Positions 1-64,000 of a stretch of 64,000 nt of DNA are shown here, piece after piece (position 1 is the first letter of the stretch; each line of letters begins with the position of its first letter). The notes beneath the pieces were generated by a model. The model made no database searches and had not been told where the DNA came from. It saw only the letters and a program-made list of their open reading frames with translations. The position numbers and the translations under genes are program-made. The stretch spans positions 248,001 to 312,000 of the forward strand of contig JAHHGX010000091.1 of the NCBI GenBank assembly GCA_019359675.1, in the 5' to 3' direction. The stretch is from Calothrix sp. FI2-JRJ7. GTDB taxonomy: Bacteria; Cyanobacteriota; Cyanobacteriia; Cyanobacteriales; Nostocaceae.

Positions 1-297
1 TTACACAGTATTGGTAAGAGCCAATGGATTTTAGGAGTTGAAATTGCAACCCATGCCCTATCTGCTGTTGGTATATATTGGGGAAGATTTTTACGCTTCA
101 ATAGTTGGGATTTTATCACTCAACCCGATTATTTATTAACGCGCGGAGTCGAAGAACTGTTGGGTAAACAACCTTTGGTGATTATCGCTGTTACCTTCGC
201 AATCTTAACAGGGCTGTACTGGCTAATGAAGCGGGTAAGTTTGGGGTTTGTCAGGCAATCAAGTCGTAGAATGAATATTCACTCGGTAAACAATTAA
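1..297 (+). CDS. DUF1361 family membrane protein, C-terminal part
   Basis: This reading frame is already open at the left edge of the window and ends with TAA at 295-297, giving the last 98 residues of a protein whose start lies outside. The fragment contains GRFLRFNSWD, which I associate with the DUF1361 family of integral membrane proteins, and a hydrophobic stretch near the C-terminus (about residues 62-77) ending in a basic tail. Function is unknown. The family assignment rests on one motif and the membrane-like composition. Confidence 0.65.
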   Translation, partial: LHSIGKSQWILGVEIATHALSAVGIYWGRFLRFNSWDFITQPDYLLTRGVEELLGKQPLVIIAVTFAILTGLYWLMKRVSLGFVRQSSRRMNIHSVNN

Positions 298-305
298 AAC
301 TGTAG

Positions 306-332
306 ATTGGGTGAAGGCTCTGCGTAACCCAA
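306..332. repeat. Short dispersed palindrome, TTGGGT...ACCCAA type
   Basis: Imperfect inverted repeat, ATTGGGTG then AAGGCTCTGCGTA then ACCCAA. A close relative lies at 33620-33646. A second small inverted repeat (GTTGGGTTC / CCACCCAAC) lies near 476-501. The rest of 298-600 has no gene that I can support. Confidence 0.6.
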
Positions 333-600
333 CTAATGGTATATATTTTTACCATAGAGGCACAGAGTCCACAGAGGGTAGAGACACAACTAATACTTCA
401 TGCCATAAAATTTGGGAAGTAGGCGCCAACAGATAACTCTCTCATCTGTGTCCTAATTTTCTAATTATATTTGATGTTGGGTTCCGTTCCTCCACCCAAC
501 CTACTAATTCTCTGGAAAGATGTAAGGAAGGCTTTGTGTGAGGTGAAATAAGTCCAGATATATCTGGATTTAATTGCGTCACAACACAGAGGGAAGTTAC

Positions 601-1773
601 ATGCAAACAATTACTAGAGAAGAAATTAAAGCACTACTTGAACAGTCCAAGCAAAACTCCATATCTATATATATGCCAACACACCCAGCAGGGCCGGAGG
701 TGCGACAAGACCCAATTAGATTTAAAAATTTAATCAAAGAAGCTGAAGCGCGCTTAATTGAGGCAGGTCTAGAAGAACAAGAAGCGAATGCACTTCTTAA
801 AAAAGCTCACGAACTTGATAACGCTGAATTTTGGGAACAATTAGGTGAGCGAGGACTGGCTATTTTTATTTCCACTGATACTTTTCGTTACTATGCGCTG
901 CCGTTAGAGTTTGATGAGTTAGTAGTTGTCACCGACCGCTTTCACGTCAAACCGTTACTCCGTATGTTGAATGGTAACGGGCGTTTTTATATCTTGACGT
1001 TGAGCCAAAAAGAGGTGAAGTTTTTTGAAGCTACACGCTATAGCATTCAACAGGTCGAAATTGAAAATATGCCCAAAAGTCTTGATGAAGCACTCAACTA
1101 TGACGAGGATGCTCAAGATGGGCAGTTCCGCATTGCCACATCAAAAGGTGGAACTGCTAATGCAGCTGTACAACCCGGTTCATTTCATGGTCAAGGAAGT
1201 CCTGACCAAGACAAACATCAAGCCGATATTTTGCAATTTTTCTACCTCATTGACGGCGCCCTGCACGACAAACTTCATGAGGATACGGCGCCTATGGTAT
1301 TAGCAGGGGTTGAATATTTATTACCGTTGTATCGTTCGGCAAGTAGTTACAAATATGTACTTGAGGAAGGTATTACCGGAAACGTCAAAATTGAAAGTCC
1401 CCAGGAATTACACGCACAAGCTTGGACTATCGTCGAGCCTTATTTCCACCAATCGCAACAAGAAGTTTTAGAACGATTCCACGAGTTGTATGGTAGCAAC
1501 AGTGGCAAAGCATCAAACAATATCAAAGAAATTGTATCTGCTGCATATTATCAGCGTATTGATTCTTTGTTAGTTGCAGTTGGAGAGCAGCAATGGGGAT
1601 TATTTGACCCGTCAAGTGAGACAGTTTACTTGCATCCAGAAGAGGAAACTGGTGATGAAGATTTACTAGATTTGGCAGCAGCGCATACCTTATTAAATGG
1701 TGGCACAGTTTACGCGGTTGAACCCCAAGAAGTACCTTACAGCACACCAGTTGCAGCCATTTTTAGATACTAA
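601..1773 (+). CDS. Bacterial archaeo-eukaryotic release factor-like protein (baeRF family)
   Basis: The 390-residue protein begins MQTITREEIKALLEQ. I chose the ATG at 601, preceded by GAGGGAAG, over an in-frame TTG at 574. It looks like the bacterial homologues of archaeo-eukaryotic release factor/Pelota domains (baeRF, probably family 7): an N-terminal segment with SIYMPTHP near residue 25, a central segment with HGQGSPDQDKHQADILQFF around residue 200 before a long helix, and a C-terminal L7Ae-like domain ending in VAAIFRY. The family is predicted to act at ribosomes or in stress responses, but no reaction is established. It stands alone, followed by a MITE and a convergent gene. Confidence 0.7.
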   Translation: MQTITREEIKALLEQSKQNSISIYMPTHPAGPEVRQDPIRFKNLIKEAEARLIEAGLEEQEANALLKKAHELDNAEFWEQLGERGLAIFISTDTFRYYALPLEFDELVVVTDRFHVKPLLRMLNGNGRFYILTLSQKEVKFFEATRYSIQQVEIENMPKSLDEALNYDEDAQDGQFRIATSKGGTANAAVQPGSFHGQGSPDQDKHQADILQFFYLIDGALHDKLHEDTAPMVLAGVEYLLPLYRSASSYKYVLEEGITGNVKIESPQELHAQAWTIVEPYFHQSQQEVLERFHELYGSNSGKASNNIKEIVSAAYYQRIDSLLVAVGEQQWGLFDPSSETVYLHPEEETGDEDLLDLAAAHTLLNGGTVYAVEPQEVPYSTPVAAIFRY

Positions 1774-1795
1774 TAGTTAGGAGTTATGAGTTATA

Positions 1796-1932
1796 CAGCA
1801 GATTGCAGGTTGGTGAGGTACAGTAATTGAAAAATGTCTAAAATGTTAGTAATTAATCAAATTAGGTAGAGTTTCTATTTTACCTATTTATACGACAAAT
1901 ATTGGTGTACCTCATTTACTCGCAATCTGCTG
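1796..1932. mobile_element. 137-bp MITE, copy 1 (TA-flanked, IS630/Tc1-like ends)
   Basis: A 137-bp non-coding element with terminal inverted repeats. The left end CAGCAGATTGC and the right end GCAATCTGCTG match perfectly for 11 bp, and a second matching block (TGAGGTAC) lies at positions 19-26 from each end. It is flanked by TA on both sides (1794-1795 and 1933-1934), as for IS630/Tc1-mariner insertions. I find no difference between this copy and the one at 11639-11775. The flanks both contain GTTATGAGTTA, itself part of a short dispersed repeat. Confidence 0.85.
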
Positions 1933-1958
1933 TAAGTTATGAGTTAACACTTCGCGCC

Positions 1959-4250
1959 TCATAACTCATAGCTTTTTCTTCTTGCCGCTTCTAAAATAAT
2001 TCGCTGTTCTGCACGCGCTATTGCATGGTGAGTTCTTAGTATTGCTTCGGGTTCGACGGAAATTGATGTTATACCCCATTGTACTAATTGGTCGATTATT
2101 TCTGGGTATAATACAGGCGCCTGACCACATATAGAACAAGGTATATTATACGAACGTGCTGTTTCAATTAGTTGTTTAATAGCTCGCATTACGGCAGGAT
2201 GACACTCGTTTAAGTTTCTTAATTGCTGAAGTTCTCTATCGACTCCTAGCAAGAGTTGCGTTAAATCATTTGTACCAATTGCAATTCCTTGCACTCCAGC
2301 TTTTATATACTCTGGCAACATGAATAATACGCTAGGTACTTCTGCCATTATCCACAGTTGGAATTGGGGTACGTGTGTAAGTCCAGATGATTCAACTTTT
2401 TGACGACAAAATATAAATTCTTCGACGCTGCGAACAAACGGTAGAATTAAACGCAGGTTATTGAATCCTGCTTGCTGAACTTGTGCTAAAATACCTAGTT
2501 CAAATTCAAATATTTCTGGATTTTGCACATAGCTCAAGGTTCCACGTTCTCCTAAAGATTGTGATGTTGACGTTGGTTCTAATACGTTGAAGCGTAAATC
2601 AAGTGACCGATAAAAAATGGGTCGAGGTGTAAATGCTTTGGCAAAGCTTATGATTAGCTCGCTCCAACGTGCGTGAAATTCTATTCGTCGTTCTTGATTT
2701 TGTAAAATACTCAAGTTGTGTTCATTTAAAAAATATACAGCCATCAATTCGGAACGCAGCAACCCAACTCCGTCAATGGGTAAGCTTTGAATTTGCTCTA
2801 TTAAATGAGCTTGGCTTAAGTTAACCATTAATTGAGTTGAGGTGGGAATCTGTGTAGAAAAGTCTTGGCTTTGTTTCGATTTGGTTATTTCTGTTAAATC
2901 CTGGTCAGATGATATTGTATTAAATTTGACTTTATTTATCTCCCCATTATCACCATTAATACTTAATTTGTCACCATTTTTTATTAGTTCTGTAGCTTTA
3001 TTCGCGTTGACTAAAGATGGTATTCCAAGCTCACGGGCTAAAATTGCGGCATGAGATGTCAAACCGCCAACTTCTGTTATTATACCTTTACAGTTCCGCA
3101 TTAAAGGTAACCAATCTATACTGATTGAACTCGCAACTAAAATAGTATCTGATGGTAATTTTTGCGGCTTTTCTTGGAAGTTTGTGATTACATACGCTGT
3201 TCCTGTGACTTGACCTGATGCGGCACCTAGCCCTTTAATAACTAGTTGTGAGTTAAAATCTGTATATTCAAGAGGTGTGACCTGCGTTAAATATAGTATT
3301 CCGTTATTTTTCGCTATAGTCCACTTGTAACTAAAGCTTGTACCGAATTGATTTGTTAGTTGGTTAGCCAGTTTTAATAATTCTTGTAACTCGGTTTGAG
3401 AAAGCGCAAATTTTTGTTGTTCTGATAGATCTAATACGCAACTAAATACACAACTTGATTCAGGTTCAATTATAGTATTCGTTTGAGTTGGCAATAATTG
3501 AGAGCAATCTTTAACTTTATATGCTAATATCTTATCGCCTAATGATTTTTCAATAATTACACCATCTGGCTTAATTTTGTAATAATCTCCATTTACTTCT
3601 CCACTATCAATTGCATTTCCTAATCCCCAATTAGCTTGTACTTCCAAACCAGAGGAATTTGCAACTAATAACCCACTCTTTGTTGCGTCCCATAACGGTT
3701 GTACTAATATACCAAAATTAACTTGGCGCAGATCAATTCCTTTTTTGTTACAATACAATAAGCTACGAGCGCGAAATAATTGACTCCATGAGCGCTTTAG
3801 TGCCAAAGCAATTTCCGTGATATTACACCAACAAACTTGTGATTCTAAAAGTTCAGATAAATCTTCTATTTTTGAATTAGTGTAATTTGTTCCAACGGTT
3901 GGGCGAAAAATCAAGCAATTTGCTTGCCATTGACTTGCTGCATCAAATATTACCTTAACCCATGTGGATGCTACATTTGCAATCATTATTTCCTGACGCA
4001 AACTACTAGCTACCTGCTGTAACTGGCGCCAGTTGGTAATATCTAAGTGTAGTTCGGAATAGGGTAAGTCGGTGATAAGAGTTTGTGTATCAAGATTTAA
4101 AAGAAACTCGCGTGTTACATCCGCAGCTACAACAAAACCAGGCGCCACTGGGTAACGAAGTTGCAGCAAGCGACCCAAGTTAAACGCCTTATCACCAACT
4201 TGAGTAAGGTCTTGCTGTTCTATTTGATTAAGCCAATAAAGTCTTTCCAC
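1959..4250 (-). CDS. PEP synthase-like phosphotransferase
   Basis: The 763-residue protein has the layout of phosphoenolpyruvate synthase: an N-terminal ATP-grasp-like region (about 1-330), a swivelling phosphohistidine domain with GGLTSHAAILARELGIPS (His400), and a C-terminal PEP-binding barrel with YRSLDLR (548-554), IGTNDLTQ (658-665) and CSICGQ (Cys708). These are the expected phosphohistidine and acid/base residues. The N-terminal region is eroded: where PpsA has a RSSATxED-type loop this protein has FRPTVGTNY near residue 115. It may have altered nucleotide use, or be a regulatory relative. Co-directional with the small gene upstream (46-bp gap). Confidence 0.7.
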   Translation of the reverse strand: MERLYWLNQIEQQDLTQVGDKAFNLGRLLQLRYPVAPGFVVAADVTREFLLNLDTQTLITDLPYSELHLDITNWRQLQQVASSLRQEIMIANVASTWVKVIFDAASQWQANCLIFRPTVGTNYTNSKIEDLSELLESQVCWCNITEIALALKRSWSQLFRARSLLYCNKKGIDLRQVNFGILVQPLWDATKSGLLVANSSGLEVQANWGLGNAIDSGEVNGDYYKIKPDGVIIEKSLGDKILAYKVKDCSQLLPTQTNTIIEPESSCVFSCVLDLSEQQKFALSQTELQELLKLANQLTNQFGTSFSYKWTIAKNNGILYLTQVTPLEYTDFNSQLVIKGLGAASGQVTGTAYVITNFQEKPQKLPSDTILVASSISIDWLPLMRNCKGIITEVGGLTSHAAILARELGIPSLVNANKATELIKNGDKLSINGDNGEINKVKFNTISSDQDLTEITKSKQSQDFSTQIPTSTQLMVNLSQAHLIEQIQSLPIDGVGLLRSELMAVYFLNEHNLSILQNQERRIEFHARWSELIISFAKAFTPRPIFYRSLDLRFNVLEPTSTSQSLGERGTLSYVQNPEIFEFELGILAQVQQAGFNNLRLILPFVRSVEEFIFCRQKVESSGLTHVPQFQLWIMAEVPSVLFMLPEYIKAGVQGIAIGTNDLTQLLLGVDRELQQLRNLNECHPAVMRAIKQLIETARSYNIPCSICGQAPVLYPEIIDQLVQWGITSISVEPEAILRTHHAIARAEQRIILEAARRKSYEL

Positions 4251-4295
4251 TCAAGTAGTTTGTTTATTGTTGATTACCGTTTGCAGCCTGATCAT

Positions 4296-4709
4296 TTAAT
4301 CGAATAATAAAAGTGCTTTTGTGAATATTTCTTCTCCACTACGAGTTTGAAGTATAGCTTTGACTAATTCTACAAAATTATTGTCTGCTTTATCATCTGC
4401 TTCAATGGTTTTCGTTGCAGCATAAAAGCTAACATCGTCCATTTTTAATTCGTTTGTTACACCTGTTTGTAACTCACGTTTTTTATTATCCCAAGAAAGA
4501 GACTTGGCACGTAATGTAAATTGAAACCATACTATCTCCGAATCCTGAAGCTCAAAGAAAATATCAAAGTAAGGTTCTTCCCCTTGATACCAAATTCGCT
4601 GTATGCCCTCTTGACTAGGTTTTTTCAGGAGTTTCTGCTCGATTTTGTGTAGAGAAGCTCCTAGCGATTCTATTTCATTGCGGCCTAACACTTGATTACT
4701 GTTTTGCAT
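4296..4709 (-). CDS. Hypothetical protein, 137 aa
   Basis: I do not recognise this protein. It is a soluble, mixed alpha/beta-looking 137-residue chain beginning MQNSNQVLGRNEIESLG and ending with KALLLFD, with no signal peptide or membrane segment. It carries WYQGEEPYFDIFFEL around residues 40-54, which looks like paired beta strands. It lies between recF and the PEP-synthase-like gene on the same strand, 113 bp after recF, so it may share a transcript with the latter. The codon use and AT content resemble the neighbours. Confidence 0.6.
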   Translation of the reverse strand: MQNSNQVLGRNEIESLGASLHKIEQKLLKKPSQEGIQRIWYQGEEPYFDIFFELQDSEIVWFQFTLRAKSLSWDNKKRELQTGVTNELKMDDVSFYAATKTIEADDKADNNFVELVKAILQTRSGEEIFTKALLLFD

Positions 4710-4822
4710 CTTGAGATTTTCCGTATGAGTAGCATTTGATTTTATATAAATAATTATTATTTATATGTATGAAAATAATACAAATATAACCATTTACTTA
4801 TTTATATTAAATCAAACAGCAT

Positions 4823-5977
4823 TTATATTGAAGATTGGGTATAAATTTTCCCACTATGAACCGAAAGTATTTGTGATGAATTCAACCACTGTGAATCAAA
4901 AGACCCTAAATGGGTAGTAGTAATCAGAGTTTGAAAACGGTCTTGAATTGCATCAAGCAATTGATTCTGTCTTGACGGGTCAAGTTCTGCTAAAACGTCA
5001 TCGAGTAGCAGTAAAGGAGGTTCCCCAACAACTTCTTCAATTAATTGTAACTCTGCCAACTTAAGCGCTAGAACCAGCGTTCGCTGTTGACCTTGCGAAC
5101 CGTACTGACGAGCAGGTGTTTGATTGATTGTTAATTCTACTTCGTCACGATGAGGCCCGACAAGGGTAGTTCCTTGACGTAGTTCTGGTATTACACGTTG
5201 TTGAATTTTATCTAAAAAGGCTTGCTGAACTTGTTCTGATTGATTTTCAACAGTTTGTACATTTGGAGCATATTTGATTTCTAGAACTTCAGTACTGCCA
5301 CTAATACTAGCGTGCCATTTAGCAGCAATAGGCGCCAAACGTTGTATAGCTCTTTCGCGTCTTCTAATTACCCTAGTCCCTGTTGTAACAAGTTGTGCAT
5401 CCCACACACCCAATTGTTCTGAGTGAGTCGTGCTGAGTAGGGAGTTGGTTGTGTCTTTGCCAGAAGTAGCGGCGATATTTTTTAGAAAAGCGTTTCGTTG
5501 ACGTAGAACTTGGTTATATTGCTGTAATATATAAGCATAAACTGGCTCTAATTGTACTAATAATGTATCAAGCCAGTGGCGCCGACCTTCAGGGCCACCA
5601 CGAACTAATTCTAAATCTAAGCTCGAAAATTCAACGGCGTTAAGAACACCAAGAAAATCGGTTTGGCGCCTAAGATTTTCTCCATTCAAGTTGACAGTAC
5701 GGCGCCCGTTACGACGTAAAGTTAAAGCTAGGTCACTAACACCTGTCTGCCGCTCAAGACTTGCTTTAATTTGAGCAATTTCTTCGCCATCACAAACTAA
5801 TTCCTTATCGCGTGCCATGCGATGGCTTCGCAAAGTCGCTAACAACTCCACAGCTTCCAACAAATTTGATTTACCCTGAGCATTATTACCTAACAAAATA
5901 GTTTTAGGAGCAGTGAAATCAATATACTGCTCCCGATAATTACGAAATGCTCGAAGTTGGATAGATTGCAGAAACAT
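4823..5977 (-). CDS. recF: DNA replication/repair protein RecF
   Basis: RecF binds gapped DNA and, with RecO and RecR, helps load RecA. The 384-residue length is normal. Visible motifs are Walker A GNNAQGKS (residues 30-37), an ABC-type signature region YGSQGQQRT in the C-terminal third, and Walker B LLLLDDVLAELD. The start MFLQSIQLRAFRNY is typical of the family. It lies downstream of the P-type ATPase on the same strand but is separated from it by two palindromic repeats, so co-transcription is uncertain. No dnaA or dnaN is next to it. Confidence 0.95.
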   Translation of the reverse strand: MFLQSIQLRAFRNYREQYIDFTAPKTILLGNNAQGKSNLLEAVELLATLRSHRMARDKELVCDGEEIAQIKASLERQTGVSDLALTLRRNGRRTVNLNGENLRRQTDFLGVLNAVEFSSLDLELVRGGPEGRRHWLDTLLVQLEPVYAYILQQYNQVLRQRNAFLKNIAATSGKDTTNSLLSTTHSEQLGVWDAQLVTTGTRVIRRRERAIQRLAPIAAKWHASISGSTEVLEIKYAPNVQTVENQSEQVQQAFLDKIQQRVIPELRQGTTLVGPHRDEVELTINQTPARQYGSQGQQRTLVLALKLAELQLIEEVVGEPPLLLLDDVLAELDPSRQNQLLDAIQDRFQTLITTTHLGSFDSQWLNSSQILSVHSGKIYTQSSI

Positions 5978-5995
5978 AAAAAATTAATGTAGGTA

Positions 5996-6054
5996 GGTGT
6001 GTGACGCTTTTTATAACTCCGCTTAATTTTAAAATTTTGGTGGCGTCACGCACC
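5996..6054. repeat. GGTGCGTGACGC palindromic repeat, copy 1
   Basis: Inverted-repeat element with arms GGTGTGTGACGC (5996-6007) and GCGTCACGCACC (6043-6054). One of seven relatives in this window; it lies between recF and the P-type ATPase gene. Confidence 0.8.
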
Positions 6055-6075
6055 GGCGCTTCGTTGATAGTTAGT

Positions 6076-6136
6076 GGTGCGTGAAAGCACTTCAATCTTG
6101 CGTTACATTGATTGACTGTAATAGCTTTCACGCACC
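6076..6136. repeat. GGTGCGTGAAAGC palindromic repeat, copy 2
   Basis: Inverted-repeat element with arms GGTGCGTGAAAGC (6076-6088) and GCTTTCACGCACC (6124-6136). It is the AAAGC subtype of the family and sits just past the 3' end of the P-type ATPase gene, where the hairpin could also act as a terminator. Confidence 0.8.
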
Positions 6137-6141
6137 CTACT

Positions 6142-9021
6142 TTAAACGTTTTTCTTGCCAATGAGACGGAAGAAAATTTTCTCAGCTTCAATCCAAACGA
6201 ACATTAGCGCACTAAATCCTACACATACTAACAATTCGGTCTTGCCTAGAACATGGGTACCAAAAAAATCTCGTAGTGGTGGAACGTAGACCAACATTAA
6301 CTGCAAGATTGAGGTTACAACTACTGCTGCTAATACATAAGGATTTGATAGTGGATTAACTTCAATAGTTAAGCGGTTATTAGAACGAATCGCAATGGCA
6401 TGACCCATTTGAGCAAGACACAATGTTGTAAATACCATTGTCTTCCAAGAATTTGGGTCGCCTTGGTAGCCAGATGCATGAGTATATCTATATGCCCATG
6501 CCATCATTGTAATTGTAATAATCGCGAATACTATTCCAATGCGAATTATGTAAGCCCCTAAACCGCGTGCGAATATACTTTCACGTGGGCTAAAGGGTGG
6601 ACGCTTCATTACATCTAGTTCAGGAGGTTCAACAGCTAGTGCTAAAGCTGGCAAACCGTCTGTAACTAAATTCATCCATAAAATTTGTAACGGTGATAAC
6701 GGTACGCCTCCTAAACCAAGTAGCGGTGCCGCTGCTACAGTAATGACTTCACCGATATTACTACCCAAGATGTACTTGATAAATCTACGGATGTTCGTGT
6801 AAACTACACGACCTTCTTTTGTAGCGGCGACGATAGTAGCAAAGTTGTCATCAAGTAAAACCATGTCGCTGGCTTCTTTACTAACGTCAGTACCAGTAAT
6901 ACCCATTGCAATACCGATGTCAGCTTGTTTGAGTGCAGGAGCGTCGTTAACCCCGTCTCCTGTCATTGCTACAAAACGACCACGCCGTTGCAACGCTTGC
7001 ACAATTCGCAATTTGTGTTCAGGCGCCACTCGTGCGTAAATGCTTACCAGGTCTACTTGCTGCTCAAGTTCCTGGTCGCTCATTTTTTGGAGTTCCTGCC
7101 CAATTAAAACTTTGTCGTTACTACCATCAGCAATACCTAAATCTTTAGCTATTGCGCGTGCTGTTAATTGGTGGTCACCTGTAATCATCACAGGACGAAT
7201 ACCAGCTTCGCGAGATTCTTGTACAGCAGCGCGAACTTCTGGACGTGGTGCGTCGAGCATTCCGACTAAACCAAGCCATACTAATCCTTGTTCAGAAGTT
7301 TCATCAGAATTTTCGGGTGGTATTTCAGTTAATGGCTTGTAAGCAAAACCTAGTACACGTAAACCATTACTCGCCATGTTGTCGTTTTGAGCGAGAATTA
7401 CTTTACGTATATCATCAGTTAAAGGGATAGAATGTTTACCATTATCTATTCCATTACAGCGAGCTAATATCAGTTCGGGTGAACCTTTGGTAAACATCAA
7501 ATATTGTTCTTGACGTACCCGGTCTTTTAACACTGGGTCAATACTGTTCGCTAATAAACCTGTATCAACTGGTTCGACTTTAGTAATAACACTCATCCGC
7601 TTGCGTTCGGATGAAAACGGAAATTCCCTGACACGAGGCAGTTTGCTTTCCCACTGGTCTTTTTCTATGCCGCCTTTTCCTGCTAATGTTACTAAGGCGC
7701 CTTCTGTAGGGTCTCCTAAAATTTTCCAGTCACCTTTATCGTTTTGTAAGTCTGAGTCATTACAAACAGCACAAGCGACTAACAAAGCAGAAATTTCTGG
7801 ATTTTGTTCAGGCGAAACGGTTTTTCCATTTAAACTAAACTCACCTTGTGGAGCATAACCATTTCCTGTCACCCCAAATAACTGATTATTGGTGAAGATT
7901 TGCTGCACCACCATTTTATTTTGGGTGAGGGTACCAGTTTTATCAGAACAAATTGTTGTTACTGAGCCAAGGGTTTCTACTGCTGGCAACTTACGAATTA
8001 AAGCTTTTTGCCGAACCATGCGCTGCGTTCCCAACGCTAAGGTAACAGTAATAACGGCGGGTAAACCTTCTGGTACCACAGCGACAGCCATTGATAACGA
8101 AACTTCCACAAGTTCTCTAAACGTGTCTAGCAGTTTGTTTCCAGTTACGCCAGAACTTATAGCTTGAAACATCCCAGCGGCAATTACTAAAGCTACTAGT
8201 ATTAGTGAACCAGTAACGAGTACATTACCCAATTGAGTCATGCGCTGTTGTAATGGGGTCGGTTCGCTTTCGACAGACTGCAACATTTGGGCAATTTTTC
8301 CCAACTCGGTTTTCATTCCCGTGTTGGTAACTAGAATTTTGCCCCGTCCATTTACTACTTCGGTTCCTTGGAAGACTAAATTAATCCTATCGCCCAAAGC
8401 TGTTTCTTCTGGCAGTGTTAAATCTGATCGCTTGTTAACAGCCTCAGCTTCTCCCGTCAGCGCTGACTCTCGAATTTGCAGGTTTGATTGTTCAATTATT
8501 CGCCCGTCTGCTGCTAACTGCACCCCTGCTTCGACTAACATTAAATCACCAGGTACTAAATCCTTACCTGCAATCTCTACTTGTTTGCCGTTGCGGATAA
8601 CGCGAACATTTGGGGAAGATAATTTTTTCAAAGCTGCAAGTGCTTGTTCGGCGCGGCTTTCTTGTACATAACCGAGAATCCCGTTCAAAATAACGATTGC
8701 TAAAATGGCAATTGTATCTTTAAAGGGTAATTCGCCCGGTTTGAGTTCTCCCGCACGCCAAGACAGAAAATCTAGAACCCCGGAAACAAAAGCCACCCCA
8801 ATCAACATCAACAGCATGATGTTTTTGAACTGGTCTATCAAAATTTCCCAGGAACTGCGACCACCAGACTCTTCTAACTCGTTTGATCCATATTTTTGCA
8901 AACGCTGTTGAACTTCTTCCGGCGTTAAGCCCTTGTCTGCGCTTGTTGACAGTTGTTGTATTGCTAATTTCGGTTCTAAACTATGCCATACGGCATTATC
9001 AGGCAGAGAATGAGCAGACAT
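6142..9021 (-). CDS. Cation-transporting P-type ATPase, Ca2+-pump type
   Basis: A 959-residue P2-type ATPase, resembling cyanobacterial PacL-like and SERCA-like calcium pumps. It shows the actuator motif TGEA (189-192), PEGLP in M4 (317-321), the phosphorylation site DKTGTLT with Asp360, the hinge TGDGVNDAP, and [12 protein letters not shown] in M6. PEGLP and NLVTDGLP favour Ca2+, or possibly Mn2+, over Na+/K+ or heavy metals. The N-terminus has a cation-ATPase N-domain ([12 protein letters not shown]) before M1. Expected in the plasma membrane, exporting Ca2+. Start ATG at 9021. The ion specificity is inferred. Confidence 0.9.
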
Positions 9022-9340
9022 CGTATTTAAGTTACGCTCGTATTAAGTTACAAATTTCAATCATAATTTAGACATGGTTAGGAAACCATTGACTAAGCTT
9101 ACACGCTTTGTTGTTATAGATATACATCTATATAACTACTACACAAGTAATACTGTATAGGTGTTATTAACATCTCATAGGCAGGTTTTCCTCATCCCTA
9201 AGTAATATTGACTTTCGATAGAGTAATTTGTAACACATAATTTACCATCATAAGAGTAAATTACTGTCTAAAATTGTGCATGAATGAAATAAGGCAAATA
9301 AGCTTTAGGCAAATCAAAGCGTTGGACAAATAAGTTTACT
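9022..9340. other. Intergenic, divergent promoters expected
   Basis: This gap separates the divergent P-type ATPase and transglutaminase genes, so it should hold both promoters. The only structure I see is a small imperfect palindrome around 9113-9136 (GTTATAGAT...ATCTATATAAC). No coding sequence or RNA gene is supported. Confidence 0.4.
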
Positions 9341-11020
9341 ATGAGTTACGCACTTGATAATTTGAATAATCTAACTACGGGTAAGATGTTTGGGCAACGA
9401 ACAATTAGACCACTTTGTGCAGCCTCGATTTATGGCATCGCCTTCATCAAGGATACACTTATTGCGATTGACCAAAGAAAGGGATTTTTACTAGAAATTA
9501 ACCCTTATACAGATAACACCAAGGTACTTAATCCACACCAGGTGCGTGAATTTACCGGGGTAACAGGCATTAGCCTCTGCGAAGATACGCTATGGGTGGT
9601 GCGAGATAACAGTGTTTATTTATGCAAGCTCGACTCGTTGGGTTTAGAGCATTTCATCACGTTACCTTATCCTGCTGATGGCATAGCTGTATGGGGGTCA
9701 ACCATTTACGTAAGCTGTCAAAAACTCGGTGGAATTCTCATTTTTGACCGTAACACACGCAAGCAGATTACACACTTTTACGCGCCCGGAGTAGGAGTAG
9801 AAAATTTAGCAGTATGTGAAGATACGCTTTGGGTTTGCGACCGTACCGAACAAACCGTTTATGCTCTCGACCGCGCAACAGGAGAAATTCAGTTTAACGT
9901 TCTTACACCGTTTGATTCTCCTACAGGCATAGCTATCCACACAGACGAAAACGGCTCAAGTAATATCTATGTTGCTTATGCATCAGATGAGCCTTACGTG
10001 CGCGATAACCCTAACGCCGACCCAAACTATGAGGTTGCATATCGTGACCGGACGTTTGTTCATAAGTTACAATATCACTACGACCCTCAAAAGCGTGTTG
10101 CTTTATCAAACGGATATTGTATAGAAATGTCTTATGTTGAGGAAGTGGCGCCTCTCGAAGAAATTTATTTGCCTGATTTAGAATGGCATATTGCTTTACC
10201 CAGCGATACCGACCGTCAAAAAGTCGTTAGTGTTGAACCAATTGGGCTACCTTTTAGCGAACAAACCATTGAAGGACAGCGAGTTGCGGTTTTTAAATTT
10301 GACGCTCTTACCCCAGGTGAACGCCATGTTTTGGGTTGGAAGGCAATTGTGGAAGTCCGTGGCATCAAATACCGCATTACTCCGCGTGATGTCGAAAATA
10401 TCCCCGAATTGCCTGAAGAATTCAAAACGCGCTATCTCGTAGACAACGATGACTTGGCAATGGATACGGGTATAGTTATTCGCGCGGCACAAGACGCTGT
10501 TGGTACAGAAACTAATATTTTACGGAAAATGTATAACATCCGTAATTATGTGTACGACCAGCTTTCATACGGTATAAAACCTTATATCGACTCTCCTGAT
10601 GTTGTACTTGAACGTGGTGTAGGTTCGTGTGGTGAGTACGTAGGAGTTTTATTAGCGCTATGTCGCTTGAATGGCATAGCTTGCCGTACAGTTGGACGCT
10701 ATAAATGTCCTGCATTTGCTGAACATCAAAATGTTCCCTTACAACCTGACTTCAATCACGTCTGGTTAGAATTTTATATCCCTGGTTTTGGTTGGTTGCC
10801 AATGGAGTCTAACCCTGATGATTTAGGATATTATAGCGCTCATCCAACCCGGTTTTTCATGGGTTTATGCTGGTACCATATCGAAATCGCTAAGGGTATT
10901 TCATTTGAAAGCTTGTTTAGTAAAGGTGTACGCCTGACAAAAGAAGATATTTCAATCGGTGAGCTAGCTATTAATCACATACGCTTTACGATTCTTGATG
11001 AGTTGCCACCTCAGAAGTAA
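9341..11020 (+). CDS. Beta-propeller plus transglutaminase-like protein
   Basis: A 559-residue protein. Residues about 25-240 contain repeated short blades of the type GIAFIKDTLIAID, GISLCEDTLWVV and NLAVCEDTLWVC, consistent with an NHL/WD-like propeller. Residues about 375-500 form a transglutaminase-like papain-fold core: GVGSCGEYVGV (Cys430), FNHVWLEFY (His473) and ESNPDD (Asp493 or 494), so the Cys-His-Asp triad is intact. Such domains are usually cysteine proteases or amidases rather than true crosslinking enzymes. No signal peptide is visible, suggesting a cytoplasmic location. The substrate is unknown. Confidence 0.75.
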   Translation: MSYALDNLNNLTTGKMFGQRTIRPLCAASIYGIAFIKDTLIAIDQRKGFLLEINPYTDNTKVLNPHQVREFTGVTGISLCEDTLWVVRDNSVYLCKLDSLGLEHFITLPYPADGIAVWGSTIYVSCQKLGGILIFDRNTRKQITHFYAPGVGVENLAVCEDTLWVCDRTEQTVYALDRATGEIQFNVLTPFDSPTGIAIHTDENGSSNIYVAYASDEPYVRDNPNADPNYEVAYRDRTFVHKLQYHYDPQKRVALSNGYCIEMSYVEEVAPLEEIYLPDLEWHIALPSDTDRQKVVSVEPIGLPFSEQTIEGQRVAVFKFDALTPGERHVLGWKAIVEVRGIKYRITPRDVENIPELPEEFKTRYLVDNDDLAMDTGIVIRAAQDAVGTETNILRKMYNIRNYVYDQLSYGIKPYIDSPDVVLERGVGSCGEYVGVLLALCRLNGIACRTVGRYKCPAFAEHQNVPLQPDFNHVWLEFYIPGFGWLPMESNPDDLGYYSAHPTRFFMGLCWYHIEIAKGISFESLFSKGVRLTKEDISIGELAINHIRFTILDELPPQK

Positions 11021-11030
11021 TGGTGCGCTC

Positions 11031-11058
11031 GTAGAGACGCGATTAATCGCGTCTCTAC
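11031..11058. repeat. Perfect 28-bp GTAGAGACGCGATT palindrome
   Basis: GTAGAGACGCGATT followed by its exact reverse complement, 11 bp after the stop of the transglutaminase-like gene. Related palindromes occur at 54520-54545 and inside the RND pump gene (22011-22030), and a degenerate one near 11425-11447. It may also serve as a transcription terminator. Confidence 0.85.
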
Positions 11059-11479
11059 TATTTTTGCAATTGCGTCTCTACAATTACTTTTACAAATAAT
11101 TCATGGTTTTATAGCAAAGCTTTATTCAAGCTTGATTAATCTCAGTATATTCATAGATTACCTTGGAAATTATCACGCACTAAATTTAGTCACTCATATA
11201 AAAACAGTAAGATGCTTAAGTAAAATTATTTAATTAGAATTAGGTAATATTATCGGTGAACAGTAAATACTCTTAAGTAAATTACATCTGTAAATATATG
11301 GAAAATATATGAATATTATTTGTTAAACTAGCGGTAATTGACATTGCATAAGAGCTAAAAATAAAGATAAACATATAAATATTGAATCTTACTTTATATT
11401 TACTATTAAATGACACTCGGCACAAGACGCGACATGTCACGTCTCTACATTCAGCACTATATATTAGCGGTGAAAGCAA
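11059..11479. other. Intergenic, AT-rich
   Basis: An AT-rich gap between the transglutaminase-like gene and the interrupted gene. It contains a degenerate GTAGAGAC-type palindrome (near 11425-11447, with ACATGT at its centre) and no coding sequence that I can support. Confidence 0.4.
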
Positions 11480-12908
11480 GTGAGCAATTTAATAAATCCT
11501 TACTACACAAGCCTTCCAGAAGAGCAAAAGATATATCAACATTTGCTATATCTGGTGCAAGTTGAATCACCAAGTCAGATGCTTGTACGTTTTCAAGCAC
11601 TCTTTATAGATGGTTTTGATTATTCAGAATTAGAGATACAGCAGATTGCAGGTTGGTGAGGTACAGTAATTGAAAAATGTCTAAAATGTTAGTAATTAAT
11701 CAAATTAGGTAGAGTTTCTATTTTACCTATTTATACGACAAATATTGGTGTACCTCATTTACTCGCAATCTGCTGTATTATTGGCTTTAGACCAGATTAC
11801 TACCTGTGAAAAAGCCGAGCAAGAATTTAATTTTTTTCTCAACCGTTGCTGCCATATTTTGATTAATCGCTGGCACATGCAGCCACAAATACATTGTTTT
11901 ATACCCGATTTAATTACATTATTTCAATCTTCACCTTCTCGTCATAAAATTATTAGTATTCGCGAAAAGGCAATTCGGCGCCTACATATATTAGTAAAAA
12001 ATTTTATCCAAAGCGAGCAATATGTAGCTTTGCGCCGATTAACACAAGTAATTTCACACAACCAAACACAGCGCAATGTTCATCAATCCCTAGCAACGTT
12101 AATGCGACGCTACCCATATTTATATGAGCATTGTTTACTAACAGAAGACTCAACAACTGAGCATAAGTGGACTGTTAAAAAAATCAAAGCTGAAGTTCAA
12201 AAAGACTTTGAGCTTGATTTATCGCGTTATGTTACCTGGAAAGTTCGTTGCCATCAAGCTTCACAAATCGATAAAAACAATAATACAAGTAAACTAATTT
12301 TGCCCGTCGATAATCCGACTTTATTAAGTGAAGCAAATTTAAACGCTGCTCTCACACAATTTATGGGTAGAGTTGAGGGTGATTACACTTATCAAGAATT
12401 GGCACAAAGATTTTTAAACTATACTCAAGCTTCTTGTTATGGCGTCTTTAAAGATGACTTGTACGAATATCTTACTTCTGGAATTGATAGAGAATACGGC
12501 AAGCTACAATTTAATCACCGTTTGTATAAACAATTACAAAATACTTTGATAGATGCCGATGACCAAAAAATGAATGAATTCTTATTAGTTCGTACCTGTA
12601 GTCAATTACTAAACTTTTTGGTTGTAGAAAGTGCAACATCACCCCAGCATTTTACTTTTATTGATTTAATTGCCAACCAAGGTACCCTCATTACAACAGG
12701 ATTGTTACTCAAAATTGTGTTGATTTGTCATAAAGTCAAACCTTATTTAACAAAACGGTTTGCAATTTTGTTTAATCATTATGAGTCCGCGACGACAAGC
12801 GGTATCATCTGGCTTGTAGAAACACTCGAACAGTTGAATATTGCCTACAGCATTCATTTTGGAAATGTAGACATTTCATACTTTAATCAACTTAAAACTA
12901 AATACTAG
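11480..12908 (+). pseudogene. Conserved hypothetical gene interrupted by a MITE
   Basis: The reading frame starts at GTG 11480 (an in-frame TGA lies just upstream at 11471), encodes about 53 residues (SNLINPYYTSLPEEQ...), and then runs into the 137-bp element at 11639-11775, which brings a stop. Deleting the element plus one TA copy (11639-11777) joins GAG-ATA directly to TTA-TTG-GCT and restores one open frame of about 430 codons to the TAA at 12906-12908. The C-terminal part (from about 11778) is intact and could be translated from a TTG or GTG inside the element (11745 or 11748). It is a soluble helical protein of unknown function; I do not recognise the family. Confidence 0.85.
11639..11775. 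mobile_element. 137-bp MITE, copy 2, inside a gene
   Basis: Identical, as far as I can read, to the copy at 1796-1932. Its TA flanks are at 11637-11638 and 11776-11777, so the duplication is the dinucleotide expected for IS630/Tc1 elements. It encodes no transposase and must depend on one elsewhere in the genome. Identity of the two copies suggests recent transposition. Confidence 0.88.
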
Positions 12909-12920
12909 TACGACAATATA

Positions 12921-13820
12921 TTATACTATTTTTCTAGGTACGCTAGAGAATTGGCAAATGGAGTTAAACGGACAGAAACGACAGTGATAGCCTGGGTTTG
13001 GTGGGAATATTGTGTTAAAAAACTGTGATTTTTGTTGATATCTTTCGATATCTTGCTGGTGTTTAGTAGCTATACTTGCCAGTTCTTGCTCGATTTTATC
13101 TAATTCGCTCTCAGAAATTACGATTAGCTCAGATTTTTTACCAATTTCTAAATTATAAAACGAAGCTATAGCTTGATACTCAGGGTATAAATATCGTGCT
13201 GCGACTAAATAAACTAACGCTTGTCGGTGATCAAATGGAGATTTCCCTGTCTTAAAGTCTAAAATATGTAGAGTCCGTAGTGATGCGGGTTTATGTTGGG
13301 TATTTATGTCACCTTCTATAAAAACACAGTCCATTGCCGCATATAATCTAAAACGGTAATCTTGTTTTTCTACGGCAATTGGTTTTGGAAAACCTTCATC
13401 ACCGCGCGTCAACTGGATTATTTGCTTATTATGTAGTAAAGGTGAACTATGATAGTTTTTTAAGATTTGCAACACCCGTTGTTGCACTTCTGTAGTTGTA
13501 TAATTTAATCTCAGTAGTTGTGCGACCTTTTCAACGCCATCATCTTGCTTAAGAAGGTGCGGGTTGTGATGAAATTCATATACTCCTTTTTGTGCTAACA
13601 GACCTATACGCTGTGATGGAGTTGCGCTTTTTAATAGAGCTTTTACTTGTGGTTCGTGCTGACGTGCTTTAATAAACCCCCTTCGCATTTGACAATGCAA
13701 ACGTTGCTGTCCTGCTGCTGGGACAACTAATGACCAAAGATGATAGCTTATGAATGGTCGAGGGGTTAACATTGTTCGAGTCGAGTAATAGCTTAATGTA
13801 AAATTTGACACCAACTTCAT
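12921..13820 (-). CDS. PD-(D/E)XK nuclease family protein, RecB/Cas4-like, likely Fe-S
   Basis: A 299-residue protein with the PD-(D/E)XK signature: Asp164 in AAMDCVF and ILDFKTGK (Asp188, Lys190), followed by a Gln-containing helix (DHRQALVYL). The C-terminus has Cys280-X2-Cys283-X5-Cys289. Together with Cys43 near the N-terminus this matches the four-cysteine iron-sulfur pattern of AddB, Cas4 and related RecB-type exonucleases. It is predicted to cut DNA ends. No cas genes or helicase partner are adjacent. It faces the interrupted gene tail to tail, 12 bp away. Confidence 0.78.
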   Translation of the reverse strand: MKLVSNFTLSYYSTRTMLTPRPFISYHLWSLVVPAAGQQRLHCQMRRGFIKARQHEPQVKALLKSATPSQRIGLLAQKGVYEFHHNPHLLKQDDGVEKVAQLLRLNYTTTEVQQRVLQILKNYHSSPLLHNKQIIQLTRGDEGFPKPIAVEKQDYRFRLYAAMDCVFIEGDINTQHKPASLRTLHILDFKTGKSPFDHRQALVYLVAARYLYPEYQAIASFYNLEIGKKSELIVISESELDKIEQELASIATKHQQDIERYQQKSQFFNTIFPPNPGYHCRFCPFNSICQFSSVPRKIV

Positions 13821-14456: not shown

Positions 14457-14510
14457 GTGGACAGGTATAAATAGGACGGGCAAGGATGCCCATCCCACTC
14501 ATTGGTGATA

Positions 14511-61917: not shown

Positions 61918-62832
61918 ATGCTGCCAGTTATCTACTCTGACGAGTTTCTCGAACACAAGACAGGAAGGGGACATCCAGAAAGACCCGAACGTTTAAGTGC
62001 TATTACTGCTGCACTACGTGAAGGTAATATCGCTTCCCAAATCGAATGGCGCCTGCCAACACCTACAAGTGGACGTTCTTTAGTACCATTAATCGAACAA
62101 ACGCACGACTCTAGTTATATTCAAAAAGTTCAAGAAATTTGCTTGGCTGGTGGTGATTGCCTAGATTTTGAAACAACAATTTCACCTCAAACCTATGATG
62201 TAGCGTTATTAGCTGTAAGCGCGTGGTTAGATGGAGTAGATATTGTTTTAGAAACGGGTAAACCCGCTTTTGTTCTGGCACGTCCACCTGGACACCATGC
62301 TGAACGCGAGACAGGGATGGGGTTTTGTGTATTTTCTAACGCCGCAATCGCAGCAGCTTATGCTCTCGAAAAACCTGGTGTTAACCGTGTCGCAATTCTT
62401 GATTGGGATGTTCATCACGGCAATGGCACTCAAGCAATAGTTGAAACCAATCCACAAATAGCTTATTGTTCACTACATCAATATCCGTGTTATCCCGGTA
62501 CTGGCAGACATACAGAACGTGGTTTTTACCGCAATGTGTTGAATCTACCGTTTCCACCAGGTAGCGATATTAACCTTTATCAGCCAGCCTTTGAAAAAAT
62601 GGTAATACCCTTCTTATCTGGTTTTGAGCCAGATTTACTCATTGTCAGCGCTGGGTATGATGCAAACGCTGATGACCCATTGGCAAATATAAACCTTCAA
62701 CCACAAGACTATGGATTATTCACCGACCATTGCTTACAGATAACGCGTAAAATTTTGTTTGGTTTAGAAGGGGGTTACGATTTACATACGCTTTCCCAAT
62801 CTGTAGTCGCAACAATTGAGAAGTGCTTGTAA
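61918..62832 (+). CDS. Histone deacetylase-family hydrolase
   Basis: A 304-residue zinc-dependent deacetylase of the arginase/HDAC fold (class II-like). It has GRGHPERPERL near the start, ARPPGHHAE (tandem His), ILDWDVHHGNGTQAI (zinc Asp-His), SAGYDANADDPL (zinc Asp) and LEGGYDL. In bacteria such enzymes act on acetylated polyamines or acetyl-lysine proteins (acetoin utilisation type). Substrate unknown. It is a single-gene unit. Confidence 0.93.
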   Translation: MLPVIYSDEFLEHKTGRGHPERPERLSAITAALREGNIASQIEWRLPTPTSGRSLVPLIEQTHDSSYIQKVQEICLAGGDCLDFETTISPQTYDVALLAVSAWLDGVDIVLETGKPAFVLARPPGHHAERETGMGFCVFSNAAIAAAYALEKPGVNRVAILDWDVHHGNGTQAIVETNPQIAYCSLHQYPCYPGTGRHTERGFYRNVLNLPFPPGSDINLYQPAFEKMVIPFLSGFEPDLLIVSAGYDANADDPLANINLQPQDYGLFTDHCLQITRKILFGLEGGYDLHTLSQSVVATIEKCL

Positions 62833-62838
62833 TAATTT

Positions 62839-62908
62839 GCAACGGATACAACGGATGGTTTATTTTAGTAGAACAAACCATCCGTTACATCTGCTCATAA
62901 TCCGTTGC
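62839..62908. terminator. Nested double hairpin between convergent genes
   Basis: Outer arms GCAACGGAT (62839-62847) and ATCCGTTGC (62900-62908) enclose inner arms AACGGATGGTTT (62850-62861) and AAACCATCCGTT (62875-62886). It lies between the convergent HDAC-like and amidase genes and could terminate both. Confidence 0.7.
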
Positions 62909-62912
62909 CACT

Positions 62913-63854
62913 TTAACCAATAAGCTTTTGCCAACTAGCAGGCCCAATTATTCCATCAGCAAATAAACCATTTTGCCTTTGGAACCTTTTTACTGCTTCT
63001 TCGCTTCCAGACCCGTATACTCCATCTATCTCAACATTCATGCGGTGCTGCAAGTAGCGAATTACGGGTCCACCAGCATGGTTGAGTCGAATAATTCGCT
63101 TTGCTAAAATCTGATTAATAGCTTTCCAGGTTGTTTCACCTGCAACTCCAGTAACTTGAAGTCCCACGATGCGTTGAAATTTTTCTAGGGCAACTTTTGT
63201 TTGTACATCAATAGTACCGTCTTCGATTAATGCTTTTCCATTTTGGTCGGTAATTTTGAGTCGGTTCAAAGCGCGCTGTATTCGTAACACCGATACATCA
63301 ATATTGTCTTCTTCGTCGGGTAAGGTATTGACGTTTTCAGAAGGCAGTCGCCCAGTTAAACCTTTAACGATAGCATTGGCTAACGCTTCCGGATTATACA
63401 AAGCCATATCTTTTTTTGAATCTATAAAACAGCCTTCTACCAGTATTCGAGTCATGTTTGTGTTTCTCAACACAAATAAATGCGAGCCATTTTTAACACC
63501 ACGATTGAAAAAACCTATTTTTACTATTTCGTTTAATACTGCTTTCGCTACTTTTCGACTTTGTTCTCCAATCGCAAACACCTCTGTACCGTTTGCCTGT
63601 TGGTTAAAAGCATTAAAATGAATCGATACAAATGTTTCAACTCTTGCGGAATTGGCTCTATCACACCTTTGTGACAGTGATTCTCTTACTGTGCCGGTTC
63701 TTTGCGGTCTGCATTCGATTACTTCGTGTCCCAATGCTCTTAACTTGGATATTACCCGATTCCCTACATCTACAGTTAAATTATCCTCAAATTTGATACC
63801 ACGGGCGCCTGTGTCAGGGGGACAATTATGACCGATATCAATTCCGAATTTCAT
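62913..63854 (-). CDS. N-acetylmuramoyl-L-alanine amidase with two peptidoglycan-binding domains
   Basis: A 313-residue protein: Amidase_3-type catalytic domain (about 1-175) with zinc ligands in GIDIGHN, FEDNL (Glu) and VSIHFNAF, and catalytic VEGCFID (Glu), then two PG_binding_1 domains (about 190-255 and 265-312; each ending in motifs such as GVAGETTWKAI and GIIGPASWQKLIG). No signal peptide is visible, so it resembles a cytoplasmic amidase or endolysin-like protein exported by another route. Start ATG 63854. Confidence 0.88.
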   Translation of the reverse strand: MKFGIDIGHNCPPDTGARGIKFEDNLTVDVGNRVISKLRALGHEVIECRPQRTGTVRESLSQRCDRANSARVETFVSIHFNAFNQQANGTEVFAIGEQSRKVAKAVLNEIVKIGFFNRGVKNGSHLFVLRNTNMTRILVEGCFIDSKKDMALYNPEALANAIVKGLTGRLPSENVNTLPDEEDNIDVSVLRIQRALNRLKITDQNGKALIEDGTIDVQTKVALEKFQRIVGLQVTGVAGETTWKAINQILAKRIIRLNHAGGPVIRYLQHRMNVEIDGVYGSGSEEAVKRFQRQNGLFADGIIGPASWQKLIG

Positions 63855-64000
63855 GGTAAATGCCTCAATCAGCGATAATGTTGTTTTGTCAGTTGAAGTT
63901 GAATATAGGTAATTAATTACACTTTCGCTAAAAAATAATGTATACTTTTTAGTTTCCAGACCCCAATATACATCAATAACTATCTTATGTAGAAGTACTT

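Follow-up and report, generated by a model that had tools for sequence, protein, structure and literature searches.

HIP1 (GCGATCGC) is an abundant short repeat of cyanobacteria, and its function and origin are unsettled in the literature on highly iterated palindromes (HIPs). The 64,000-nucleotide stretch of Calothrix sp. FI2-JRJ7 DNA analyzed here (the window) lacks HIP1 and is rich in GGCGCC, which raises the question of how widely one palindrome has replaced the other and what generates and preserves it. A genus that exchanged HIP1 for another palindrome, with one methyltransferase lost and another kept, amounts to a natural experiment. The phenomenon is already known, because Elhai (2015; PMC4390886) described GGCGCC as an alternate HIP in a congener, Calothrix PCC 7103, where HIP1 and the m5C CGATCG methyltransferase are lost, GATC and CGATCG are depleted, and GRCGYC-type methyltransferases are present. 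In that study, which drew on one genome and 19 kb of another strain, a GATC-specific nuclease was proposed as the cause of HIP1 loss, and exceptional HIPs were considered sporadic rather than features of clades.

GGCGCC in place of HIP1

The original prediction was made by eye and put the window at roughly 90 GGCGCC sites, with about four expected by chance at a GC content of about 39%. Counting bore this out: at a measured GC content of 39.2%, there are 97 copies versus 3.6 expected from base composition or 5.7 from a second-order Markov model (~27-fold and 17-fold excess, respectively), and GGCGCC has the highest z-score among 6-mers on the (+) strand. As also anticipated, the sites occur in genes and spacers alike; rough gene calls placed 87 of them in coding sequence, where they occupy all three frames (48/20/19), and 10 outside genes, i.e., ~1,619 per Mb in genes and 974 per Mb outside. 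The expected absence of HIP1 and scarcity of GATC were likewise found, with no copy of HIP1 or CGATCG in the window and 15 copies of GATC versus 227 (zero-order) or 156 (maximal-order Markov) expected. Genome-wide, the counts of GGCGCC were not near expectation and the HIP1 frequency was not normal: the 8.66-Mb genome of this strain (G000) contains 14,889 GGCGCC sites (1,719 per Mb), eight copies of the reversed control CCGCGG, and 31 copies of HIP1. These counts agree with the proposal that GGCGCC stands in for HIP1 throughout the genome, as Elhai (2015) found for PCC 7103.

Table 1. Positions of the repeat and of the candidate methyltransferase gene
Feature	Coordinates	Strand	Remarks
GGCGCC set	1..64000	.	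97 of the 14,889 genomic copies, located in both genes and spacers
First GGCGCC in the window	422..427	.	Example unit, palindrome
Last GGCGCC in the window	63804..63809	.	Example unit
Orphan C5-methyltransferase	G000:C79:135478-136428		PF00145, E 6.9e-66

GGCGCC is the alternate HIP of one Calothrix-like genus, and its exchange for HIP1 is clade-wide. All seven genus genomes searched, among them PCC 7103 (G005), carry between 7,475 and 20,380 copies (1,150 to 1,719 per Mb), compared with 0 to 1,053 in the remaining 210 of 217 family genomes. In the regions read of these seven genomes, GGCGCC is ~27-fold over-represented and GATC is depleted (430 versus 3,420 expected). HIP1 numbers 31 to 163 copies in the genus versus 1,117 to 7,721 in 18 of the 18 other family genera examined. 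What is new relative to Elhai (2015) is that the exchange is present in every genus genome searched, when formerly one strain was known, and this contradicts the statement there that exceptional HIPs do not occur in clades. The seven congeners represent a single evolutionary event rather than seven.

An alternate HIP in the sense of Elhai (2015) is a GC-rich palindrome far above other hexamers, with HIP1 near-absent, and both features are found here at a density that falls within the ~1,000 to 2,000 per Mb given there. The GATC depletion of PCC 7103 recurs, a methyltransferase predicted for the palindrome is present in 7/7 genomes, and, in parallel with the reported loss of the m5C CGATCG enzyme, a DmtC-like protein is unmatched in 7/7; the present case differs in that all seven congeners share GGCGCC and in a mutational footprint that points to the central C. 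HIP1, with its DmtC-type CGATCG methyltransferase, is likewise a GC-rich palindrome linked to an orphan C5-methyltransferase and is similar in density (from hundreds up to ~2,000 per Mb), but it differs in sequence, and both HIP1 and the DmtC-like enzyme are absent or nearly so in the genus.

High counts also occur elsewhere in the order. In G032, G377, G252, G327, and G399, they are merely 0.9 to 2.1 times the base-composition expectation (~1.6 in G032), as calculated from the whole-genome count and the GC content of the stretches read, and in G273 (6.5 times expectation) and G346 other motifs are enriched. This check covered 20 to 75 kb per genome and left out G025 and several genomes of family f2 with ~700 to 1,200 sites.

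Methyltransferases of the genus

An orphan GGCGCC methylase had been predicted to lie elsewhere in the genome. An orphan C5-methyltransferase gene was indeed located (Table 1), and a whole-genome search recovered it intact in 7/7 genus genomes; the enzyme is predicted to be of GRCGYC type rather than strictly GGCGCC-specific. No match above 40% identity was detected in 34/34 other relatives, apart from a C-terminal fragment in G009. The GGCGCC-rich state matches the presence of this gene in 41 of 41 genomes examined, a tally in which G032 (2,493 sites) and G025 (1,106 sites) are scored as not GGCGCC-rich.

Homology, the nuclease partner of its relatives, and a target-domain motif together place the enzyme, as a prediction from sequence, in the GRCGYC (BsaHI/HindVP) family. 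Neely and Roberts (2008; PMC2413257) reported the central C as the base of GRCGYC that M.BsaHI methylates and described a conserved Arg eleven residues and a Gly/Ala nine residues before the TL motif. With these counts taken as intervening residues, and the marks taken from the description (the BsaHI sequence itself lying outside the alignment), 12 of 12 aligned sequences had, counting from the T of TI, R at −12 and G/A at −10. Among the GRCGYC-type enzymes of the genus, one orthologue is common to all seven genomes and the rest are sporadic. More broadly, 64 of 98 PF00145 matches were clustered, with second pieces of split matches, fragments, and some intact enzymes (G004:C77, G001:C41, and G002:C1:1160653) set aside, and two C5-methyltransferase clusters among these 64 were present in all seven genomes. 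The second (L060:3282-4391), which at a guess from Elhai's text might be DmtD (rCCGGy), also occurs in HIP1-rich siblings, in most of them at 67 to 74% identity, and for that reason was dropped as a candidate.

Relatives of the enzyme were compared through 80 loci kept out of 409, from which records of the window's own genome may be missing; one comparison took in 41 of these 80 plus six other genus proteins. An RE_HindVP stretch of at least 150 aa was present in 53 of the 73 non-genus loci among the 80, and a match of any length in 60, versus none of the seven genus loci. In both G000 and G001, the gene has SLH-domain genes and a RuBisCO-like gene as neighbors, with no nuclease, and PF09519 was unmatched genome-wide in all seven genus genomes, whereas it was recovered in 3/3 control genomes with loci known to carry it. 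Since no RE_HindVP nuclease adjoins it in the genus, the methyltransferase is an orphan rather than part of a complete restriction-modification system. Although it shares the target-domain marks of BsaHI/HindVP-type systems and its own relatives adjoin RE_HindVP, it differs from such systems in its missing partner; in addition, GGCGCC is enriched in the genus, not avoided.

GGCGCC is avoided around the 73 non-genus loci among the 80 (17 versus 128 expected), but siblings without the orphan methyltransferase avoid it too (1 versus 20 expected), so this avoidance says little about specificity. Fifteen cyanobacterial loci were nuclease-negative, five of them with short RE_HindVP matches of 52 to 130 aa. 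At 10 cyanobacterial loci of HIP1-keeping relatives without a nuclease match, one of which (L231) has hardly any upstream flank, there was no gain of GGCGCC (1 versus 14.9 expected), indicating that the methyltransferase alone is not sufficient.

The second correlate concerns an enzyme of the HIP1 system. A DmtC-like C5-methyltransferase was matched in none of the seven genus genomes at E <= 1e-60 and in 33 of 34 non-genus genomes; the sole exception, G031, is HIP1-poor as well, so that presence or absence of the enzyme fits the HIP1 state of all 41 genomes. We infer that the DmtC-like protein is DmtC. As the 33 matches span 43 to 100% identity and include two that are partial (G018 and G023) and one with a stop (G016), not every match need be DmtC.

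Decay and conservation of GGCGCC sites

We scored decay at sites with a clear majority state in two regions (five species and four species, respectively). The central position had undergone C-to-T (or G-to-A) change at 57 of 176 GGCGCC sites compared with 369 of 2,877 other CpGs (p 1e-10), and central transversions were found at none of the 176. Changes at the outer bases were rarer than in GC-only hexamers (32 of 704 versus 61 of 796 positions; p 0.013). Among nine one-off classes, GGTGCC/GGCACC alone exceeds its level in siblings (O/E of 1.24 in the genus versus 0.61). A central C-to-T excess is expected of GG(m5C)GCC and points indirectly to the central C, the same base that M.BsaHI methylates.

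Recent singleton changes, scored among four or five species at ~93 to 96% identity, comprised 63 losses and 7 gains of GGCGCC, compared with 117 to 98 in the GC-only control, and 45 of the 63 losses were central C-to-T or G-to-A changes; with such an imbalance, active creation of GGCGCC is not visible now. Polarizing against G003/G001 gave 49 losses among 118 ancestral sites and one gain, although merely 20 one-off opportunities are too few to judge gains; stem polarity gave 2 and 1.

GGCGCC is retained more often than GC-only hexamers in 10 of 11 within-genus comparisons. The conserved fraction is 0.50 to 0.60 versus 0.21 to 0.24 at ~80% identity and 0.68 to 0.85 versus 0.38 to 0.39 at ~85% identity, with hardly any excess between G000 and G006 (0.77 versus 0.76). 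Replacement by GGTGCC/GGCACC affected 56 of 720, 12 of 183, and 8 of 121 sites, a fraction that stays flat at 6.6 to 7.8% from ~93% to ~80% identity. Sibling DNA could be aligned to that of the genus over ~1 to 6 kb only.

Origin and persistence of the palindrome

The explanation that we consider best, and on balance probable, is that the orphan methyltransferase supplies G-m5C, a methyl-directed bias builds GGCGCC, and deamination removes sites. The GRCGYC-family enzyme would derive from a restriction-modification system stripped of its nuclease, would methylate the central cytosine to give GG-m5C-GCC, and would supply the G-m5C marks in place of DmtC. After HIP1 loss, methyl-directed repair or an equivalent bias would convert near-miss sequences into GGCGCC, as in Elhai's model, and the same bias would resist change at the outer bases; deamination of m5C to T would be the main route of loss. 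We favor such a repair bias for the origin and persistence of the sites despite the 63 losses and 7 gains among recent changes. That imbalance counts against it, as does the finding that nuclease-free relatives with HIP1 gain no GGCGCC, and predicted GRCGYC acceptance sits badly with the depletion of GGCGTC, GACGCC, and GACGTC in the genus (15, 19, and 13 versus 86, 87, and 133 expected). We know of no nickase that reads G-m5C. More tentatively, the genus may have rewired a methylation mark: DmtC and HIP1 were lost, a nuclease-free methyltransferase took over, and a repair bias reading G-m5C rebuilt the palindrome. If so, a HIP would arise as a by-product of the orphan C5-methyltransferase that happens to supply G-m5C; it would persist over clade-level time and decay mainly via m5C deamination. 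Either way, a single conserved gene is singled out, and its predicted methylated base is testable.

The excess conservation over GC-only hexamers in all but one of the 11 comparisons, and a GGTGCC/GGCACC fraction that is flat with divergence, as if such losses were short-lived, would also suit selection for a function of GGCGCC itself, for instance as the binding site of a protein involved in nucleoid structure, recombination, or uptake, with methylation merely an accompaniment. We regard this as unlikely, given the negligible excess between G000 and G006, spacing that is near random, the use of all codon frames, and the lack of any positional signal; the match with methyltransferase presence and DmtC-like loss would, moreover, have to be coincidence, and no GGCGCC-binding protein is known to us. 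Somewhat less likely again is a relic, i.e., a single expansion in the genus ancestor that is now just decaying by m5C deamination. The predominance of singleton losses, most of them central transitions, is what a relic would show, whereas GGTGCC/GGCACC replacements hold steady without accumulating, densities are still high in all seven genomes, and outer bases change less than the control.

Very-short-patch (Vsr-type) T:G repair could make GGCGCC from GGTGCC, and the orphan methyltransferase is of the C5 type that Vsr often accompanies, but GGTGCC/GGCACC is raised rather than depleted in the genus, and this route seems very improbable. An origin of the count in base composition, a mobile repeat, or Gly-Ala codon use is hardly credible: although 48 of the 87 sites in coding sequence fall in frame as GGC GCC, the excess in the window is far beyond both composition and second-order Markov expectation, enrichment extends to every frame and to noncoding stretches, the reversed control is nearly absent from the genome, and seven congeners are alike where 210 other family genomes are not.

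Returning to the favored repair bias, saturation near 1 kb in Elhai's model predicts regular spacing, whereas spacing is near random, with a CV of 0.97 over 1,595 gaps. The only deficit is in gaps shorter than 50 bp (59 versus ~123 expected), which partly reflects hexamer length, and in one of 13 regions spacing is about two SD more regular (CV of 0.82).

GGCGCC in place of HIP1 across the genus

We found that GGCGCC occurs 97 times in the window, compared with 3.6 copies expected from base composition and 5.7 from a second-order Markov model, and 14,889 times in the whole genome (an 8.66-Mb assembly in 91 contigs), where the reversed control CCGCGG occurs 8 times and HIP1, the usual cyanobacterial palindrome GCGATCGC, 31 times. 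The iteration is real and genome-wide. Specifically, motif counts in the window, located at G000:C91:248001-312000, gave no copy of GCGATCGC or CGATCG and 15 copies of GATC (227 expected), and rough gene calls placed 87 GGCGCC sites in genes (frames 48/20/19) and 10 outside them. These counts bear out the original prediction of roughly 90 GGCGCC sites through genes and spacers where about four would arise by chance, with GCGATCGC absent and GATC scarce. Several palindromes, among them TTCGAA, TGCGCA and CTGCAG, have zero copies in the window; GATC and GGCC are strongly depleted in the window and in the genus regions (430 GATC versus 3,420 expected and 209 GGCC versus 1,449 across the latter), beyond the level in HIP1-rich siblings.

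Among 217 genomes of the family, GGCGCC sites numbered 7,475 to 20,380 in all seven genus members, i.e., the window's genome, Dulcicalothrix desertica PCC 7102, Calothrix PCC 7103, PCC 7716, NIES-4105, HK-06 and the MAG C42_A2020_038, and 0 to 1,053 in the other 210, the highest of which (G108) has a control count of 1,270. HIP1 ranged from 31 to 163 in the genus and from 1,117 to 7,721 in all 18 other family genera examined. The most diverged congener, the MAG, shows the lowest GGCGCC density of the genus (1,150 per Mb), its highest HIP1 density (23 per Mb) and, in the region read, the most GATC (97 in 80 kb; 16–50 in the other deoC regions). Plasmid1 of NIES-4105 carries 29 GGCGCC in 20.9 kb, a density close to that of the chromosome.

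This kind of feature, an alternate HIP, is already known. The consulted parts of Elhai 2015 (PMC4390886) describe GGCGCC in this role in Calothrix PCC 7103, as well as over 19 kb of sequence from Calothrix D253. They report that two methyltransferases of predicted GRCGYC specificity are present, that a gene for a CGATCG methyltransferase is damaged and that GATC is strongly depleted, and they propose G-m5C-directed mismatch repair as the creator of HIPs; a literature search for GGCGCC and Calothrix returned no further paper. The following goes further than the literature consulted: the trait spans the clade, the orphan methyltransferase is conserved, a DmtC-like enzyme is reciprocally absent, and the sites carry a deamination footprint.

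A missing DmtC-like enzyme and an orphan methyltransferase

The swap of GGCGCC for HIP1 extends over all seven genus genomes; these lack a DmtC-like enzyme and carry an orphan methyltransferase of the GRCGYC type. As the DmtC-like query we used a 429-aa C5-methyltransferase of a sibling (G017), which almost all HIP1-rich genomes carry and which we infer on that ground to be DmtC-like, the label coming from the consulted text of Elhai rather than from a DmtC sequence. At E ≤ 1e-60, it matched none of the seven genus genomes and 33 of 34 non-genus genomes (identity 43 to 100%; two matches partial, one with a stop). The sole non-genus genome without a match, G031, has 134 HIP1 in 3.7 Mb. HIP1 status matches DmtC-like presence in 41/41 genomes, which are not 41 independent events because the genus represents one. 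G031 represents a second HIP1-poor lineage lacking this enzyme, and GGCGCC there (343; control 367) shows no evident rise.

Clustering 64 of 98 PF00145 C5-methyltransferase entries, which besides the seven genus genomes include G032, yielded two clusters found in all seven. A 370-aa enzyme was rejected as the GGCGCC methyltransferase, since HIP1-rich siblings carry it too (most at 67–74% identity) and its cluster does not track GGCGCC. In the other cluster, the form 1a is intact in 7/7 genus genomes (81–100% identity), while the 34 non-genus relatives yielded only distant enzymes (≤40% identity) and, in G009, a C-terminal fragment with a stop (68% identity). HK-06 has an intact copy (83% identical) plus two pieces (92 and 97%) on two other contigs, at their ends. 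In the tree, the genus copies of 1a form one clade (100/99), apart from sporadic paralogues (~58–61% identity) in the window's genome, PCC 7716, NIES-4105, PCC 7103 and HK-06. In the window's genome and the MAG, 1a neighbors a RuBisCO-like gene and SLH-domain genes, with no nuclease among the neighbors.

Location of the candidate methyltransferase
Feature	Length	Coordinates
1a, C5-methyltransferase	~319 aa	G000:C79:135478-136428

We kept 80 of 409 loci with relatives of 1a from several phyla, 73 of them outside the genus. RE_HindVP (PF09519), the nuclease partner of GRCGYC methyltransferases, matched over at least 150 aa at 53 of these 73 loci and over any length at 60; it was found at none of the seven genus loci and nowhere in the seven genus genomes, with positive controls (genomes whose loci carry RE_HindVP) matched 3/3. 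Across the 73 loci, GGCGCC, GGCGTC, GACGCC and GACGTC total 53 versus 379 expected, as GRCGYC restriction would predict, and nuclease-bearing cyanobacterial loci hold 0 GGCGTC and 1 GACGCC versus 35 each expected. This reading is weakened because an open scan of degenerate palindromes ranked broader patterns, e.g., NGRYCN, as more depleted, and because HIP1-rich siblings without the genus enzyme (family f1, 260 kb) also avoid GGCGCC (1 versus 20 expected), an avoidance therefore general in the family, and GACGTC (5 versus 40); their avoidance of GGCGTC (18) and GACGCC (9; 28 each expected) is milder. All 12 aligned sequences retain the target-domain marks published for the GRCGYC group. Judged by homology, the nuclease partners of its relatives and these marks, 1a is best read as an orphan of the GRCGYC family. 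An orphan methylase had been predicted elsewhere in this genome and a candidate is present, but the strict GGCGCC specificity attached to it is not indicated.

Orphan status alone is not enough for GGCGCC gain. Ten cyanobacterial loci of the methyltransferase family with no nuclease match in the stretch keep HIP1 (854 per Mb) and show no GGCGCC rise (1 versus 14.9 expected); the genome of one (L181) has no PF09519 match genome-wide. These loci fit the idea, given in the consulted part of Elhai, that HIP1 loss opens the way.

Site decay and a proposed repair-bias model

We compared syntenic genus regions of up to 80 kb (21 kb for the MAG's second region). GGCGCC is conserved at 0.77–0.90 versus 0.62–0.76 for GC-only hexamers at ~93% identity (with almost no excess for HK-06, 0.77 versus 0.76), 0.68–0.85 versus 0.38–0.39 at ~85%, and 0.50–0.60 versus 0.21–0.24 at ~80%. 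GGTGCC/GGCACC make up 76 of 128 pairwise one-off differences, which are not independent because every pair includes the window's genome. They also account for 45 of the 63 singleton losses seen in alignments of four or five species, in which only 7 singleton gains appear. Central C-to-T/G-to-A changes affect 57/176 GGCGCC sites versus 369/2,877 other CpGs and 29/189 other NGCGCN, central transversions 0/176 versus 169/2,877 other CpGs, and outer-base changes 32/704 positions versus 61/796 in the control. Of nine one-off classes, only GGTGCC/GGCACC is commoner in the genus than in siblings (ratio 2.04; others 0.37–0.66). The central excess is what 5-methylcytosine deamination at the third base would predict, indirectly supporting m5C at the central base of GGCGCC, and the footprint agrees with M.BsaHI, which methylates the central C of GRCGYC (Neely and Roberts 2008, PMC2413257). 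The GGTGCC/GGCACC share of aligned sites is flat with divergence (56/720, 12/183 and 8/121); therefore, such losses look short-lived, through reversion or purging.

We infer methyl-directed repair bias as the driving force: after Elhai's G-m5C model, it would generate GGCGCC sites and, in a second step, favor only G-m5C on both strands. Genus depletion of GGCGTC (15), GACGCC (19) and GACGTC (13; 86, 87 and 133 expected, respectively) fits that second step, as weak evidence because siblings are also GACGTC depleted. Near-random spacing (CV 0.97 over 1,595 gaps) and few visible recent gains count against repair bias.

Other iterated palindromes in the order

In an evenly drawn order-level sample of 388 genomes, we examined stretches from seven genomes whose GGCGCC counts were high; the others reach up to ~1,200 GGCGCC sites. 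Relative to base-composition expectation (whole-genome counts, GC of the stretches read), G032, G377, G252, G327 and G399 stand at 0.9–2.1x and G273 at 6.5x (9,489 sites; control 2,450), with a different, RGCGCY-like enrichment. G273, which shares genus g26 with G031, belongs to another family (GC 54%; HIP1 1 in 75 kb); AGCGCC/GGCGCT and GGCGCC are strongly enriched, AGCGCT by subtraction is not, and the top 8-mer is CGGCGCCG. This may be a further alternate HIP; RGCGCY as a string is absent from the text of Elhai 2015. In G346, RCCGGY (ACCGGC/GCCGGT) is enriched and HIP1 is at 0 in 40 kb, resembling Oscillatoria PCC 10802 as reported in the consulted part of Elhai.
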